The position numbers and the translations under genes are program-made. From assembly GCA_900316715.1 (NCBI GenBank), contig ONEC01000014.1, positions 1 to 35,889 on the forward strand: a stretch of DNA of 35,889 nt. Direction: 5' to 3'. Shown here one piece after another: positions 27,514 to 32,534 of the stretch. Within the stretch, counting starts at the first letter, position 1. The number at the start of each line of letters is the position of its first letter. The stretch is from an uncultured Eubacteriales bacterium (GTDB taxonomy: Bacteria; Bacillota; Clostridia; Lachnospirales; Lachnospiraceae). The notes beneath the pieces are model-generated. The model was not told the origin of the DNA. It searched no databases and saw only the letters and a program-made list of their open reading frames with translations.

Positions 27514-27523
27514 AAAAGTATCA

Positions 27524-27602
27524 ATAAAAAAGTCTCCTTCCGAGATGAAGCGCTGCAGCCGCCCACAAAGGGCTCTGCAGCACTCACTCGGAAGAAGACT
27601 TA
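27524..27602 (-). terminator. Large multi-stem terminator hairpin after the histidine kinase gene
   Basis: Directly after the kinase stop, the minus strand folds into a long rod: outer 14-bp arms at 27531-27544 and 27587-27600 (one mismatch), an inner 9-bp stem GTGCTGCAG/CTGCAGCGC, and a tip GCCC-TTTGT-GGGC, followed by TTTTTT. The core of this hairpin is also found in the intergenic element at 31411-31482. Confidence 0.85.
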
Positions 27603-28457
27603 TTAATTTCTTAAGTAAATTATAAACTCGCCGCCGGTTCTTTTATTGTTAGGGATTACTTTTAAGTATCCATCTTCTTTAGCTACTATTTCACGTGTCA
27701 GATACAGGCCGATTCCAACACCTTCTTCCTGCTGGACCTCTGTACTCCTGTAGAATCTTCCGAATATCTTTGCCATATCCTCTTCTTTGATTCCCGGGCC
27801 TTCATCGATTACATGAATTGCAGTATACATTTCATATTCATCAATGGTTACTTCGATCTTTCCACCTTTAGGAGAATACTTTACCGCATTATCAAGAATG
27901 TTAAATAAAGCTTCTGTTGTCCACTTCATATCAAAGAGAGCTCTTTTCCCTGAAGCCTCAGGCTTAATGATGGATATAGTCTTCACATCAGCCTTTGGCC
28001 TTATGGCTGAAACCGCTGTATTAATAAGCTTATCCAGATCATCATGTTTTCCAACGACTTCGAGAGTTCCGTTCTCCAGACGTGAAAGCTTAGTAAGCGA
28101 ATCGATAAGGAATTCCAGTCTTTCGTTCTGTCTTCCTATTTCACCAGCAAACTTCTGAATCTTTTCTATTGACGCAGCCTCTCCCAGAGAAGCCTCCTCC
28201 CTCAATAGTTCAGTATACATTTTTATAACAGTCATAGGAGTCTTCGTCTGATGTGATATATCAGATATGAACTGCTCCAATCTGTGTCTTTCACTTTCAA
28301 GATTTTTGTTAGATAAAGCTGAACTGCCGAGGAATTCCTTCCATCTGGATTCAAGACGTGAGAGTCTCGATTCATCATAATCACTCTCTTCGAAACGGCC
28401 CTCGATGGCAGAATCAAGCATTTCCTCTAATCTGGTAATAGTTTTATTCTCAAACAT
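27603..28457 (-). CDS. Histidine kinase without sensor or membrane region
   Basis: This 284-residue kinase has a short N-terminal helical stretch to about residue 55, a HisKA domain with the phospho-acceptor His69 in FISDISHQTKTPM, and an HATPase domain with the N-box ILDNAVKYS, the G1 box VIDEGPGI, the F-box GRFYR and the G2 box GVGIGLYL. There is no membrane segment or sensor domain, unlike the usual Bce-type kinases with two helices. AAGG precedes the ATG. It lies 42 bp behind the response regulator. It probably receives its signal from a partner, either the exporter or the small membrane protein of the operon; this is inference. Confidence 0.93.
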   Translation of the reverse strand: MFENKTITRLEEMLDSAIEGRFEESDYDESRLSRLESRWKEFLGSSALSNKNLESERHRLEQFISDISHQTKTPMTVIKMYTELLREEASLGEAASIEKIQKFAGEIGRQNERLEFLIDSLTKLSRLENGTLEVVGKHDDLDKLINTAVSAIRPKADVKTISIIKPEASGKRALFDMKWTTEALFNILDNAVKYSPKGGKIEVTIDEYEMYTAIHVIDEGPGIKEEDMAKIFGRFYRSTEVQQEEGVGIGLYLTREIVAKEDGYLKVIPNNKRTGGEFIIYLRN

Positions 28458-28499
28458 ATCTATGCCTTATAATCTACTCAAATTATCATCAGAACATAA

Positions 28500-29186
28500 T
28501 TACTCAAATCTATAACCCTGTCCATAGACAGTGTTTATATGCTTTGTATCACCTGTGTCGATCTTGCTTCTGAGACGGTTGATGGTAACTGACAATGCAT
28601 TTTCATCCACGAAGTCTCCATCATCACCCCAGAGTCTGTCCATAAGCGAATCTCTGGTAAGAACTCTTCCCTTATTATCGAGAAACAGTTTGAGAAGCTT
28701 CTGCTCATTAACACTGAGAAACAGCTCATCGCTGCCCTTCTTGAATATAAGCTTCTCGAAATCGAAGATCATATCATCAAGAGTATATACAAGACTGCTT
28801 GCAGGCTTTGTATCCTTTACCATTTTGCTTCTGCGGATAAGTGCACTTACTCTGGCACGAAGAACAGCAAGACTAAAAGGTTTCGTCAGGAAATCATCAG
28901 CTCCCATGGTAAGTCCCTTAACCTCATCCATTTCCATATCATTTGCAGTAAGTATAAGAACCGGAACATTGCTGGTCTCTCTTACTGTCTTCAGATAATC
29001 ATATCCGATACCATCAGGAAGATTAAGATCAAGTATGATCACTGCTATATCATCGCCGTAGTCTTTAAAGCCCTGTCTCGCATCAGTGATAGTATACTCC
29101 TTCCTAAACTCTGTCTCCGCATCCGAAAGAGTTATCTCAATTCCATCACTGAGTGCCTTATCGTCTTCTACAATCTGTATTACCAA
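28500..29186 (-). CDS. OmpR-family response regulator
   Basis: This 228-residue regulator has a receiver domain with acidic pocket VEDD at 7-9, phospho-acceptor Asp53 in ILDLNLPDG, Thr in LILTAND and Lys in FLTKPF, then an OmpR/PhoB winged-helix domain from about 130 (VNEQKLLKLFLDNKGRVLTR, NALSVTINRLRSKI). The start is TTG at 29186 with AGGGG 8 nt upstream, and the translation from there opens exactly at the receiver domain. Its gene lies between the small membrane protein and the kinase. The direct repeats upstream of the exporter fit the tandem binding of this family. Confidence 0.95.
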   Translation of the reverse strand: MVIQIVEDDKALSDGIEITLSDAETEFRKEYTITDARQGFKDYGDDIAVIILDLNLPDGIGYDYLKTVRETSNVPVLILTANDMEMDEVKGLTMGADDFLTKPFSLAVLRARVSALIRRSKMVKDTKPASSLVYTLDDMIFDFEKLIFKKGSDELFLSVNEQKLLKLFLDNKGRVLTRDSLMDRLWGDDGDFVDENALSVTINRLRSKIDTGDTKHINTVYGQGYRFE

Positions 29187-29201
29187 AACCTATACCCCTG
29201 T

Positions 29202-29543
29202 TTATTTCTTATTTTGCACTTTTTTCTCCACATAATTCATCATTTTGATATTTATAATAATATACGCGATTATAAGTGCAATAGAGTCCAGTATAAGCAC
29301 CGGTATCAGATTAAATACCTCACTTACACCAGCTATAATAAAATAACAGACTATAATAATTCCTACAACCCTAAAATTTTTATTGTTCCATTTTTTCTTA
29401 TAAAATGTAGTCAGGTCCCTCAGGCTTTCATCTCCCTTGATTATCTTATCTGTTCTGACCTTCATAATAACATATGATATTACAGCACATATAAAAAATA
29501 CTATTCCGATAAAAATGCAATAATCACTGATTGCCTTAAGCAT
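29202..29543 (-). CDS. Small three-helix membrane protein of unknown function
   Basis: I do not recognise this 113-residue protein. It has hydrophobic segments at about 8-27, 57-75 and 79-98 and a basic loop between the first two (KKKWNNKNF), ending in a basic tail. GAGGG precedes the ATG, and the stop lies 15 bp before the response regulator, so it heads the two-component operon. Since the kinase has no membrane part, this protein is a candidate sensor or membrane anchor for it, which is an inference from context only. Confidence 0.75.
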   Translation of the reverse strand: MLKAISDYCIFIGIVFFICAVISYVIMKVRTDKIIKGDESLRDLTTFYKKKWNNKNFRVVGIIIVCYFIIAGVSEVFNLIPVLILDSIALIIAYIIINIKMMNYVEKKVQNKK

Positions 29544-29565
29544 CTATCGTCCCTCACTTTCTGCA

Positions 29566-29611
29566 TAAAAAACCCAGCTTAACAAGCATATAATACGCTT
29601 ATTAAACCGGG
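29566..29611 (-). terminator. Rho-independent terminator of the DUF2130 gene
   Basis: A 15-bp stem (29573-29587 with 29597-29611, three wobbles) and a 9-nt loop are followed on the minus strand by TTTTTT. It lies about 50 nt after the DUF2130 stop and about 25 bp before the next gene's start. Confidence 0.85.
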
Positions 29612-29623
29612 CTCATGTCAAAT

Positions 29624-29655
29624 GTGTTGCGAACGGTGTTCATAGTGTCGTGAAC
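29624..29655 (-). other. Short direct repeat between DUF2130 and the two-component operon
   Basis: GTGTTGCGAAC (29624-29634) and GTGTCGTGAAC (29645-29655) match at 9 of 11 positions with a 21-bp period. They could be a tandem protein-binding site upstream of the two-component operon; no strong promoter is seen beside them. Confidence 0.3.
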
Positions 29656-29659
29656 AGTA

Positions 29660-30880
29660 CTATTTTATCTCTGTCCCACTTTCCTTAAACAGTTTCTGCA
29701 TGGTTTCATTATTCTTAGTTAATTTCTTGATCGTCAGATCCTCAAGTTTATTATTTGCAAGTCTCAGCTGATTATCCGATGCAAGCAGTTCTTCCTTAAC
29801 CTTCTGCAGGTGAGTTATAGTCTTATCTATCTCCTCAATGGCAGTATTAAACTTTTTGTTTGCAAGATTATAATTCCTTCCAAACTTATCCTTAAAATCA
29901 AGAAGTGATGCTTCAAATGTTGATACATCAATATTTCTATTCTGGATCTCAAGAAGCTCCTTCTTAACTGAAAGAGTATTCTTAGCTGCATTTCTCAGAA
30001 ATGTAATCACCGGAATAAAGAACTGCGGTCTGATGACATACATCTTCGGATATCTGTAAGATACATCGACTATACCTGTATTGTAGTATTCATTGTCGCT
30101 TTCAAGCATTGATACCAGAACTGCATATTCGCAGCCCTTTTCATTTCTGTCTTTATCTAATTCTTTGAAGAAATCCTCGTTCTTATGCTTGGTCTTAGTC
30201 TCATCATTCTCGTTCTTCATCTCGAACATGATGGATATATACTCTACATCATCAGCATAGTCCTTAAAGATATAATCGCCCTTGCTTCCGCTTCTTGCAT
30301 CATTATCCTTCTCAAAATATGCCGTCTGAAAACCGGTAGCACGAAGCTTATTAAACTCTGTCTCACAGTATTTCTCAAGGCTTTCACCTATCATTTTCGT
30401 AGACTGCTTTAACTTGAAATCCTTTATTCTTTCGATTTCTTCGTCTTTACGTTTAAGCTCTTCTACATGAAGCTCTTCTTTCTTGTTTAACTCAAGATCA
30501 TACTTTAATTTATTACTGCTGATCTGATTCTCTAAATCTTTTATCTTCTCCTGTTCATCACGGACTGCTTCCTTAACAGCAATCTCCTTTTCCTTTTTCA
30601 GCTCCTGTATTTCTGCATTTTTCTGTGTACTGAATATCTGTCCCTTAGTCTCCAGATCTTTAATATGCTCTTTTAATCTGGCAATCTCATTATCTGACTC
30701 ATTCTTAGCCTTAAGAACAGCATTCTGTATAAGAGATTCCTGTTTCTCTTCCAGATCCTTTTTATTCTGAGCTACCTGCTTATTGAACTCTTTATCTTTT
30801 ATCTGACTGACAATCGCTGCATAACCTGATTCATCTATTGTAAATATCTCTCCGCAATGCGGACATTTAATATTTTCCAT
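29660..30880 (-). CDS. DUF2130 domain-containing protein
   Basis: This 406-residue protein opens with a CPHCG knuckle, continues as a long charged coiled coil (about 25-165), then has a nuclease-like fold (about 165-300) with KGDYIFKDY and ISIMFEMKNEN, which recall a PD-(D/E)XK core, followed by YAVLVSMLES and a second coiled coil to the end. DUF2130 proteins look like RmuC-related nucleases, but no activity is established. The ATG has GGAGG upstream, and a second GGAGG lies further up. It follows the small coiled-coil gene by 46 bp and ends at a clear terminator. Confidence 0.9.
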   Translation of the reverse strand: MENIKCPHCGEIFTIDESGYAAIVSQIKDKEFNKQVAQNKKDLEEKQESLIQNAVLKAKNESDNEIARLKEHIKDLETKGQIFSTQKNAEIQELKKEKEIAVKEAVRDEQEKIKDLENQISSNKLKYDLELNKKEELHVEELKRKDEEIERIKDFKLKQSTKMIGESLEKYCETEFNKLRATGFQTAYFEKDNDARSGSKGDYIFKDYADDVEYISIMFEMKNENDETKTKHKNEDFFKELDKDRNEKGCEYAVLVSMLESDNEYYNTGIVDVSYRYPKMYVIRPQFFIPVITFLRNAAKNTLSVKKELLEIQNRNIDVSTFEASLLDFKDKFGRNYNLANKKFNTAIEEIDKTITHLQKVKEELLASDNQLRLANNKLEDLTIKKLTKNNETMQKLFKESGTEIK

Positions 30881-30926
30881 AAGCAGCCCTCCTATATCCT
30901 CCTATATGTACTTACCTGTTTAGGTA

Positions 30927-31205
30927 TTATTCATTGCCATTATTATACTTAAGTCTTTGTATCTCTTCTTCGAGTTTCTTATTTTCCTCCTGAAGTCTGA
31001 GCATCTCATATTCAGATTTCAGTTCTTCATTTCTCTTCTTTTCATCCTCATAGTTTGGCATGTTATACTTTTTTCTTAATCGCTCATCTTCTTTTTTGGC
31101 TTTTTCAACCGCATCATCTACATCACATTTATTATTTATTGAATAAGTCCCATGAGCAAGCCATAAATATGCACATAAAAAACCTATGACAATTATCGTT
31201 ACCAT
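30927..31205 (-). CDS. Small membrane-anchored coiled-coil protein
   Basis: I do not recognise this 92-residue protein. An N-terminal hydrophobic helix (TIIVIGFLCAYLWLAHG, about 3-19) is followed by a strongly charged helix that reads as a coiled coil from about 33 to the end (EKAKKEDERLRKKY, LRLQEENKKLEEEIQRLK). AAGGAG lies 8 nt before the ATG. It is co-oriented with and 46 bp ahead of the DUF2130 gene, which also has coiled coils, so the two may interact at the membrane; that is inference. Confidence 0.75.
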   Translation of the reverse strand: MVTIIVIGFLCAYLWLAHGTYSINNKCDVDDAVEKAKKEDERLRKKYNMPNYEDEKKRNEELKSEYEMLRLQEENKKLEEEIQRLKYNNGNE

Positions 31206-31263
31206 CTTTAACTCCTTATGATGTCACCGTTTCATGAATATCCGATTTTAATCACATAAAGAT

Positions 31264-31269
31264 ATTATA
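31264..31269 (-). promoter_or_regulatory. TATAAT -10 box for the coiled-coil/DUF2130 operon
   Basis: A perfect TATAAT on the minus strand lies about 60 bp upstream of the coiled-coil protein start. The -35 is poor, so this call is moderate. Confidence 0.4.
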
Positions 31270-31274
31270 ATACA

Positions 31275-31399
31275 TTAATCCTCTTCTTTGGATACCATTT
31301 CTTCTAATTTCTGCATTAACTCTTCGCTGTTTCTATGTCTCCACCTCCCATATATACATAGGTGTCACAGTTTCCGAGAATAGTTCTTGCATCGCTTTT
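31275..31399 (-). pseudogene. Decayed fragment of a VirD4/TraG-type coupling protein
   Basis: On the minus strand from 31399 a short frame without a start reads ILGNCDTYVYMGGGDIETAK, then stops at 31316. This resembles the GNCDT-x(4)-GG-x-D-x-x-TA block of VirD4/TraG type IV coupling ATPases of conjugative elements. Just downstream in another frame lies SEELMQKLEEMVSKEED, ending at 31275, which looks like the end of a once-coding region. There is no start codon, no ribosome site and an in-frame stop just upstream of the block, so it is a relic rather than a gene. Confidence 0.6.
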
Positions 31400-31410
31400 T
31401 CATAATTACA

Positions 31411-31482
31411 GCTCGGACAGGCTGGTGCGTGCTACAGAGCCCTATAATGGGCGGATGGAGCGCGACATCCAGATGTCCGAGC
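31411..31482. ncRNA. GC-rich structured hairpin element of unknown class
   Basis: In the 310-bp gene-poor gap, a 72-bp GC-rich element folds into a bulged rod: P1 GCTCGGACA/TGTCCGAGC (9 bp, perfect), then CTGG/CCAG, then GTGCT/AGCGC, and a tip GCCC-TATAAT-GGGC. There is no U-run on either side, so it is not an ordinary terminator. Its core (31425-31469) matches the core of the hairpin at 27544-27587 in about 35 of 45 positions, in the opposite orientation. I do not recognise the family. It could be an RNA, a dispersed repeat or an element end. Confidence 0.5.
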
Positions 31483-31515
31483 GTCCGTTATTATAACATA
31501 TTATATTATCTGATA

Positions 31516-32517
31516 TTAATATATAACTCTATTACGGCCGGATTCTTTGGCTGTATATAGGTGTTCGTCGGCCTTACTGATATTTTCCTCTATCGAGAGG
31601 TCCGGGTCGAAGAGTCTGCATCCGAAGCTCATGGTAACATTTATGGTATTGCCATCAGCTTCTATTGAAGATTCCATGATGGATATACGTATCTTCTCTG
31701 CCTTCTCAACACAGGCTTCCAGATCTGTATCGGGCATCATCATGATGAACTCTTCACCGCCCCATCTGTATACTGATTCATTATCTCCGCAGGCGCTTTC
31801 CAGCTTTGAAGCCACAAAGGCCAGAACGTCATCACCTGCGTTATGTCCATAGGTATCATTTACTCTCTTAAACTTATCTATATCACAGATAAACAGGCTG
31901 AGCGGTCTCTTATCATCAACAACCTTATTGAATCTTCTGGAGAAATCACTGTAGAAGCCCATACGGTTCTTCAGCTTAGTAAGCTTATCATGATGTGACT
32001 CCTCAAAGAAGCTTTCCGACTCCATGGCAAGTCCGGATATAATAGCCGCCATTGAAAGCTTTCTTACATCTTCAACTTCATCGAAGCCGCCATCGCCATT
32101 CTTATTTATAATCTGAAATGCACCGATAAAGGCTCCATTTATATCTGCAACAGGCATAACAAGCACAGACTTTGTCCTGTAGCCCGTCTTCATATCAACC
32201 TCTTTGTTAAAGTCCGGGTCATTATAAGGATCATTAGTCACAATAACCCTTCCCTCCTTCAGAGCTTTTCCTACAAGGCCTGTGTTATCCGGAATAACTA
32301 TCCTGTCAACTCCTGTAGCGGATGTTGTCCAGAGCTGATGCTTGTTCTTATCCCATTTCCAGAAGCTTGCTCTATCGGCATCAGCCATGGTTCTTCCAAG
32401 CTCAGTCATGTATTCGAATACAGCTTTGTGATCACTTTCCTCTACGCTGCACATTTCCGAATAAAGCTTTGTACTGATGTCACTTATATTCTTTAAAATA
32501 TCCTCTGCATTGTACAT
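31516..32517 (-). CDS. GAF-GGDEF diguanylate cyclase
   Basis: This 333-residue protein has an N-terminal GAF-like sensor domain (about 15-165, with DNTGLVGKALKEG and VLVMPVADINGAFIGAFQI) and a GGDEF domain from about 173. The active site is GGEEF at 253-257, with the metal site in ICDIDKFKRVND and the DTYGH motif. It should make c-di-GMP from two GTP. The RxxD inhibitory site five residues before GGEEF is absent (GDNE instead), so product inhibition at that site is unlikely. The ATG at 32517 has GGGGG 8 nt upstream; the upstream ATG at 32532 overlaps it. It is the last gene of the cyclase operon, 17 bp after the MBL hydrolase. Confidence 0.95.
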   Translation of the reverse strand: MYNAEDILKNISDISTKLYSEMCSVEESDHKAVFEYMTELGRTMADADRASFWKWDKNKHQLWTTSATGVDRIVIPDNTGLVGKALKEGRVIVTNDPYNDPDFNKEVDMKTGYRTKSVLVMPVADINGAFIGAFQIINKNGDGGFDEVEDVRKLSMAAIISGLAMESESFFEESHHDKLTKLKNRMGFYSDFSRRFNKVVDDKRPLSLFICDIDKFKRVNDTYGHNAGDDVLAFVASKLESACGDNESVYRWGGEEFIMMMPDTDLEACVEKAEKIRISIMESSIEADGNTINVTMSFGCRLFDPDLSIEENISKADEHLYTAKESGRNRVIY

Positions 32518-32534
32518 ATACCCTACCCCCATTT

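Follow-up and report, generated by a model that had tools for sequence, protein, structure and literature searches.

A new dispersed family of gene-end hairpins, REP-like in form, with a conserved centre and variable paired arms in a Lachnospiraceae genome

Why should two hairpins in one stretch of bacterial DNA, lying in opposite orientation, resemble each other in the centre and differ in their outer arms, which are nevertheless paired in both? The question is raised by a 35,889-nucleotide contig (ONEC01000014.1, assembly GCA_900316715.1) of an uncultured member of the Lachnospiraceae, hereafter the host; the contig at its full length is the window referred to below. A first-pass annotation had seen in the two hairpins either a dispersed repeat or an unnamed structured RNA. 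Both were found where it had placed them, with outer arms unlike in sequence and paired in each, and their kinship is borne out by the motif AGAGCCC-N3-8-GGGC, of which the window has one instance on each strand (shuffle mean 0.01). Hairpin A is read on the minus strand and comprises, from sequence and fold, a first outer arm (27530..27544), a conserved core (27545..27586) and a second outer arm (27587..27601); the covariance model described below, whose sense strand here is the minus strand, matches 27515-27604 with 78.8 bits. A U-run at 27526..27531, seen as an A-run on the plus strand, places six U after the stem on the minus strand. The ORF at 27603..28457 (minus strand), which we take from the first-pass label to be a histidine kinase, ends 1-2 nt before the hairpin; a putative ABC transporter has also been named among neighbouring ORFs. 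Hairpin B, on the plus strand, consists of a 5' edge ACAG with an outer arm (31408..31419), the conserved core with its inner arm and asymmetric loops (31420..31473; model match 31407-31498, plus strand, 96.2 bits) and a second outer arm with the edge GTCCGTT (31474..31489). Predicted RNA folds reach -53.7 kcal/mol for hairpin A (27525-27610, minus strand; z -9.6) and -47.1 kcal/mol for hairpin B (31400-31495, plus strand; z -6.0), with none of 200 shuffles doing as well in either case, and the opposite strands fold well too (-45 and -40.6 kcal/mol, respectively). The copy at 31411-31482 had been set apart from the first as lacking a U-run; it indeed has no good one, but it likewise stands at the 3' end of a gene, 33 nt from the stop codon of a minus-strand ORF (31516..32532). 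The conjugation-gene relic reported near hairpin B holds up at the level of sequence: 27 residues (31319-31399, minus strand) adjoining the hairpin match TraG-D_C, a conjugation coupling protein, with 21.6 bits, slightly short of the 22-bit cut-off.

The two hairpins proved to be part of something larger. A strict pattern of the core occurs at 9 places in the host genome, a draft assembly of 195 contigs, and a looser one at 18, the reversed-pattern control giving 0 for each. The nine copies align in register over 28 pairs, 14 of which show two-sided change, and a covariance model built from them returned 52 host matches at E up to 0.1, that is, 51 distinct copies and one opposite-strand duplicate; one more copy came from further host sequence, bringing the total to 52, among which L032 and L036 lie at contig ends and may represent a single place assembled twice. 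The model search of the host thus recovered further copies with covarying arms, which strongly supports the dispersed-repeat half of the original proposal; the observation is confirmed and is larger than first described. Each element is an imperfect hairpin of about 80 nt, with an asymmetric conserved centre (GTGnGTGCnnCAGAG, a short variable hairpin, then CGGnTGnnGCnCnnCATC) and outer arms that are variable and mostly well paired. Most copies (44 of 52) lie outside every called ORF of at least 70 aa, the other eight being inside predicted ORFs of 74-96 aa. By eye, certain arm types are common to several loci, and positions place 24 of the 52 copies in 12 head-to-head pairs. Beside one host copy, tandem copies of a stretch starting AGCAACATTTTTCGGC can be seen by eye (L043:1620-1900). 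The window gave no Rfam 15 family at gathering score, and a search of eight of the first nine loci at E up to 10 gave seven Rfam matches, none at gathering score. Copy B and the exact core pattern had no matches in phage, plasmid and viral-contig sequences, and full-text literature searches for such repeats brought up, among the titles listed, no earlier description of the hairpins. Hairpins A and B belong to a new dispersed family of gene-end hairpins, REP-like in form, with a conserved centre.

The distribution of this family is patchy. Among the 61 genomes of the genus, five were matched with E up to 1e-6: the host (49), the Lachnospiraceae bacterium UBA2864 (14; G061 and G065 in the genus set), G001 (2), G022 (2) and G007 (1). 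The other 56 gave none at this threshold, under stricter filters by which weak matches are lost. In an order-wide model search of 392 genomes, with 10 candidates per genome scored, the host alone was matched. The exact core pattern was found in eight stretches of an 84,980-species collection, four of them in Lachnospiraceae; those in Streptomyces, Microbacteriaceae, Acetobacteraceae and Xanthomonas had no model match at E up to 1e-5 and were taken as chance. In G001, G007 and G022, all five copies are flanked by sequence matching occupied host loci (four loci; two of the five copies by one flank), so that the pattern in part reflects old inheritance and loss. Of the 14 UBA2864 copies, 10 likewise have flanks matching occupied host loci, the exceptions being L077, L083, L089 and L092.

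The copies are tied to the ends of genes. According to simple ORF calls, an ORF reads into the copy in all 52 cases (in three, the other side is a contig edge), and none of the 52 lies between divergent genes, as compared with 94 of 552 control gaps of at least 60 nt in part of UBA2864. A called ORF has its 3' end within 60 nt of 42 of the 52 copies; relative to the nearer gene, the sense strand of the model runs in the opposite direction in 34 of them and in the same direction in eight. The copies are not independent, and the binomial p of 7e-5 for this bias serves as no more than a rough indication; copy-overlapping ORFs were excluded from the count. A run of at least five T in the 9 nt past the hairpin, on either strand, is found at 34 of 52 copies (fixed offsets, with no null for comparison), and many copies are thus not canonical intrinsic terminators. 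The gap that holds hairpin A could be read in 13 relatives, one more (L115) being unreadable, and the core is present in none of the 13; several of these core-less gaps hold an ordinary hairpin, as judged by eye. Together, the position at gene ends and the core-less gaps of the 13 relatives favour a putative role as terminators or 3'-end hairpins.

Comparison of sites between the host and UBA2864, counted by hand, covered about 1.9 million bases of the latter. UBA2864 carries the full element at eight host loci, an element with an interrupted centre at one (L049) and none at 12, three of which were matched by one flank; L048 and L051 were unreadable. At one of the 12, L050, UBA2864 carries a short terminator that shares its arms with the host copy and lacks the core, an observation that also counts towards the reading favoured below. 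No target-site duplication was seen by eye in the site pairs compared. Loss of elements also seems to occur, as L018 and L059 are occupied in G001 yet core-less in UBA2864. Copies nested in the arms of others were recognized by eye in the host at L013, L032, L017, L031, L038 and L041; at L031 a second element lies within the arms, and UBA2864 has those arms with a single element (by eye). A different repeat, made up of a series of small hairpins in tandem (L018:1298-1420, L148:6438-6514, L254:12268-12327), is inserted inside cores at L018 of the host and L148 of UBA2864, right after the core motif CTCTGCA. In UBA2864, the 3' half of one element is repeated in tandem two more times (L091:1501-1700; by eye).

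How are arms that vary so freely kept complementary? In an alignment of 71 copies (52 from the host, 14 from UBA2864 and five from G001, G007 and G022), 96.3% of the cells that should pair do so, as compared with 71.3% in shuffled alignments, none of 500 being as high, and 27-44% when the partners are slid; the alignment was fitted to the model from nine copies, a fit that favours the structure, but the slid versions fall short of it by a wide margin. Two-sided change is seen in 24 of the 28 pairs. The variable arms of 59 copies hold 657 Watson-Crick cells, nine G.U, five A.C and 21 others, showing little strand preference, and an attempt to choose the functional strand from the G.U and A.C counts was not decisive. 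Compensatory change had originally been read from the differing arms of hairpins A and B; these are different loci, and the difference alone is no proof, but paired change does occur at the same locus between species. Over 11 same-locus comparisons, two-sided change was counted for 29 pairs, one-sided change for 12 and loss of pairing for 11, a sum from which six of 17 comparisons were left out: L047:1611 versus L065:6801 (6/0/2), not independent; four L026/L084 pairings, in which the copies of the two loci occur in both pairings; and L031/L086 (9/1/3), not the same copy. In a control of 1326 pairs of host copies at different loci, the corresponding numbers were 11,078, 927 and 2,313. The both-to-one ratio is therefore 2.4 at the same locus, and 11.9 (1326 pairs) or 8.3 (172 pairs of at least 0.75 identity) between loci; it rises with divergence, as ordinary two-step compensation predicts, and paired change alone is thus no proof of template switching. 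The two-sided excess at the same locus had been considered as such a proof, an argument given up in the light of the between-locus control. Paired arm change is frequent and not diagnostic of template switching.

A stronger sign comes from the centres. Flank alignment and pairwise identity indicate that copies have been turned in place between species at five loci. The copies of G001 (L066) and G007 (L068) are turned relative to each other, with an identity of 0.96-0.97 and both flanks collinear (80% and 74%); so are those of L022:1616 in the host and L080 in UBA2864 (identity 0.92, both flanks) and of L044 in the host and L090 in UBA2864 (0.82, one flank). Where two copies are present in each species, swapped and turned pairing gives identities of 0.85 and 0.86 at L047/L082, as against 0.51 and 0.51 for straight pairing, and of 0.83 and 0.78 at L026/L084 (one flank), as against 0.61 and 0.60. 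Orientation is kept in seven comparisons (L054/L093, L047:1611/L065, L047:3714/L065, L047:3846/L088, L059/L067, L045/L091 and L031/L086), the last of which does not concern the same copy. An orientation survey of 15 rows gave six inverted and nine same, with L026/L084 scored as same from the straight pairing then entered, although the later comparison favours the swapped one; L018 versus L066 (inverted) and L018 versus L068 (same) are not the same copy and were not counted. Multi-base paired change and inverted loops are both described as footprints of template switching in the part of PMC8794818 available to us. Turning in place is a predicted footprint of template switching during replication and is a stronger sign of it than paired change.

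Several explanations for such a family can be weighed. That these are ordinary, fast-evolving intrinsic terminators which look alike by chance would agree with the unrelated sequence, often an ordinary hairpin (by eye), that relatives have at the same places; it is scarcely credible, and the copy number of the core refutes it: a single model accommodates 52 copies, and the asymmetric core turns up repeatedly where its reversed pattern gives 0. A REP/REPIN family mobilized by a RAYT (Y1) transposase, of the kind known from Pseudomonas and Escherichia coli, would account for some 50 mostly extragenic, palindromic copies, nearly half of them (24 of 52) in head-to-head pairs. We nevertheless consider it very unlikely: Y1_Tnp has no match in the host, UBA2864 or G022 (the first two being drafts, in which the gene could be missed), and it occurs in 36 of the 61 genomes of the genus, including G001 and G007, and not in the copy-rich ones. 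In addition, REPINs consist of two conserved regions and a spacer, at least in the accessible text of PMC3116915, whereas the present hairpins combine a conserved middle with variable arms. Matches to the Y1 transposase number up to 11 per genome in the genus.

A structured RNA with a function of its own, for example a protein-binding element at mRNA 3' ends, selected at the RNA level, is possible but doubtful. It would fit the conserved bulges and internal loop, the 34:8 orientation bias relative to the nearest gene end and the way in which two-sided change gains on one-sided change as copies diverge, and at some loci the copies are more alike than their flanks (0.96 versus 0.80 and 0.74; 0.91 versus 0.82 and 0.77). 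At L059/L067, however, the copies are less alike than the flanks (0.52 versus 0.72 and 0.75), as they are at L044/L090 (0.80 versus 0.90 for the flank), the variable arms show little strand preference, 56 of 61 genomes of the genus have no match, and copies turn round in place. That a dedicated recombinase inserts the core into the loops of terminator hairpins already in place, the stems of those terminators becoming the outer arms, appears unlikely. The idea draws on L050, where the stem of the host copy recurs in UBA2864 with a 5-nt loop instead of the core, on the terminator-like stem and U-run of hairpin A and on the nested copies recognized by eye. Yet L050 is the one clean same-arm case (by eye) among the 12 core-less UBA2864 sites, a central deletion in UBA2864 accounts for it equally well, and the other congeners do not polarize the change. 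Arm types common to many copies imply that arms often travel with the core, and these common types (seen by eye) weaken the related idea that a target terminator invariably supplies the outer arms from its stem.

On the comparison of sequences that establishes the family, with its pairing, gene-end location, patchy distribution, nesting, turning in place and paired arm changes, we favour, with a probability of roughly 55%, the reading that these are dispersed hairpins of about 80 nt which stand just past stop codons and probably serve as the stem of terminators or 3'-end hairpins. The copies would be those of a non-autonomous mobile palindrome that some enzyme or process has carried to new places, existing hairpins among them; we found no mobilizing gene for the family. 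Template switching at the replication fork, inside the hairpin, would then keep the arms complementary and flip the centres. It is tempting to go further and to suppose that no transposase is needed, template switching in hairpins being enough to copy, flip and re-pair the element, and that a nascent strand now and then lands in another terminator hairpin, so that the centre would spread from terminator to terminator as a self-templating parasite; these two suppositions, taken jointly, strike us as rather improbable. Because its members stay paired as their sequence changes and are at times turned in place, the family is naturally suited to the study of how DNA hairpins originate and are maintained. 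The 71 aligned hairpins form a natural series that lets paired arm change, and the turning of a large asymmetric centre, be followed at one locus across related species, and a gene-end repeat family exists in genomes without a detected RAYT.

Among known systems, REP and REPIN sequences, as presented in the available portion of PMC3116915, likewise consist of many short palindromes outside genes, frequently arranged as inverted pairs, whose stems show compensatory changes; the present hairpins differ in standing at gene ends and in having a conserved centre and variable arms, where REPINs have conserved ends and a spacer. A RAYT was, moreover, not found in the draft genomes of the copy-rich host and UBA2864. 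The mobile GC clusters of yeast mitochondria, for which the accessible part of PMC4478555 gives 42 bp as the commonest length and a debated mechanism of spread, resemble the hairpins as short, GC-rich, intergenic palindromes of sporadic occurrence that merge and shuffle, but the hairpin family is bacterial and chromosomal, located at gene ends and turned in place, with no target-site duplication seen. In the uptake-sequence terminators of Neisseria and Pasteurellaceae (the consulted section of PMC1852404), a repeated motif also forms terminator hairpins, with tail-to-tail regions favoured; there, a word of 9-11 nt is generally present in at least 1000 copies, whereas here a hairpin centre is repeated about 50 times. 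Template-switch hairpins likewise show both paired multi-base changes and inverted loops, a combination that the authors, in the excerpted text of PMC8794818, regard as the strongest support for the template-switch model and as extremely rare. Their loops typically measure 4 nt, some 7-8 nt, whereas in the hairpins described here a centre of about 50 nt turns.
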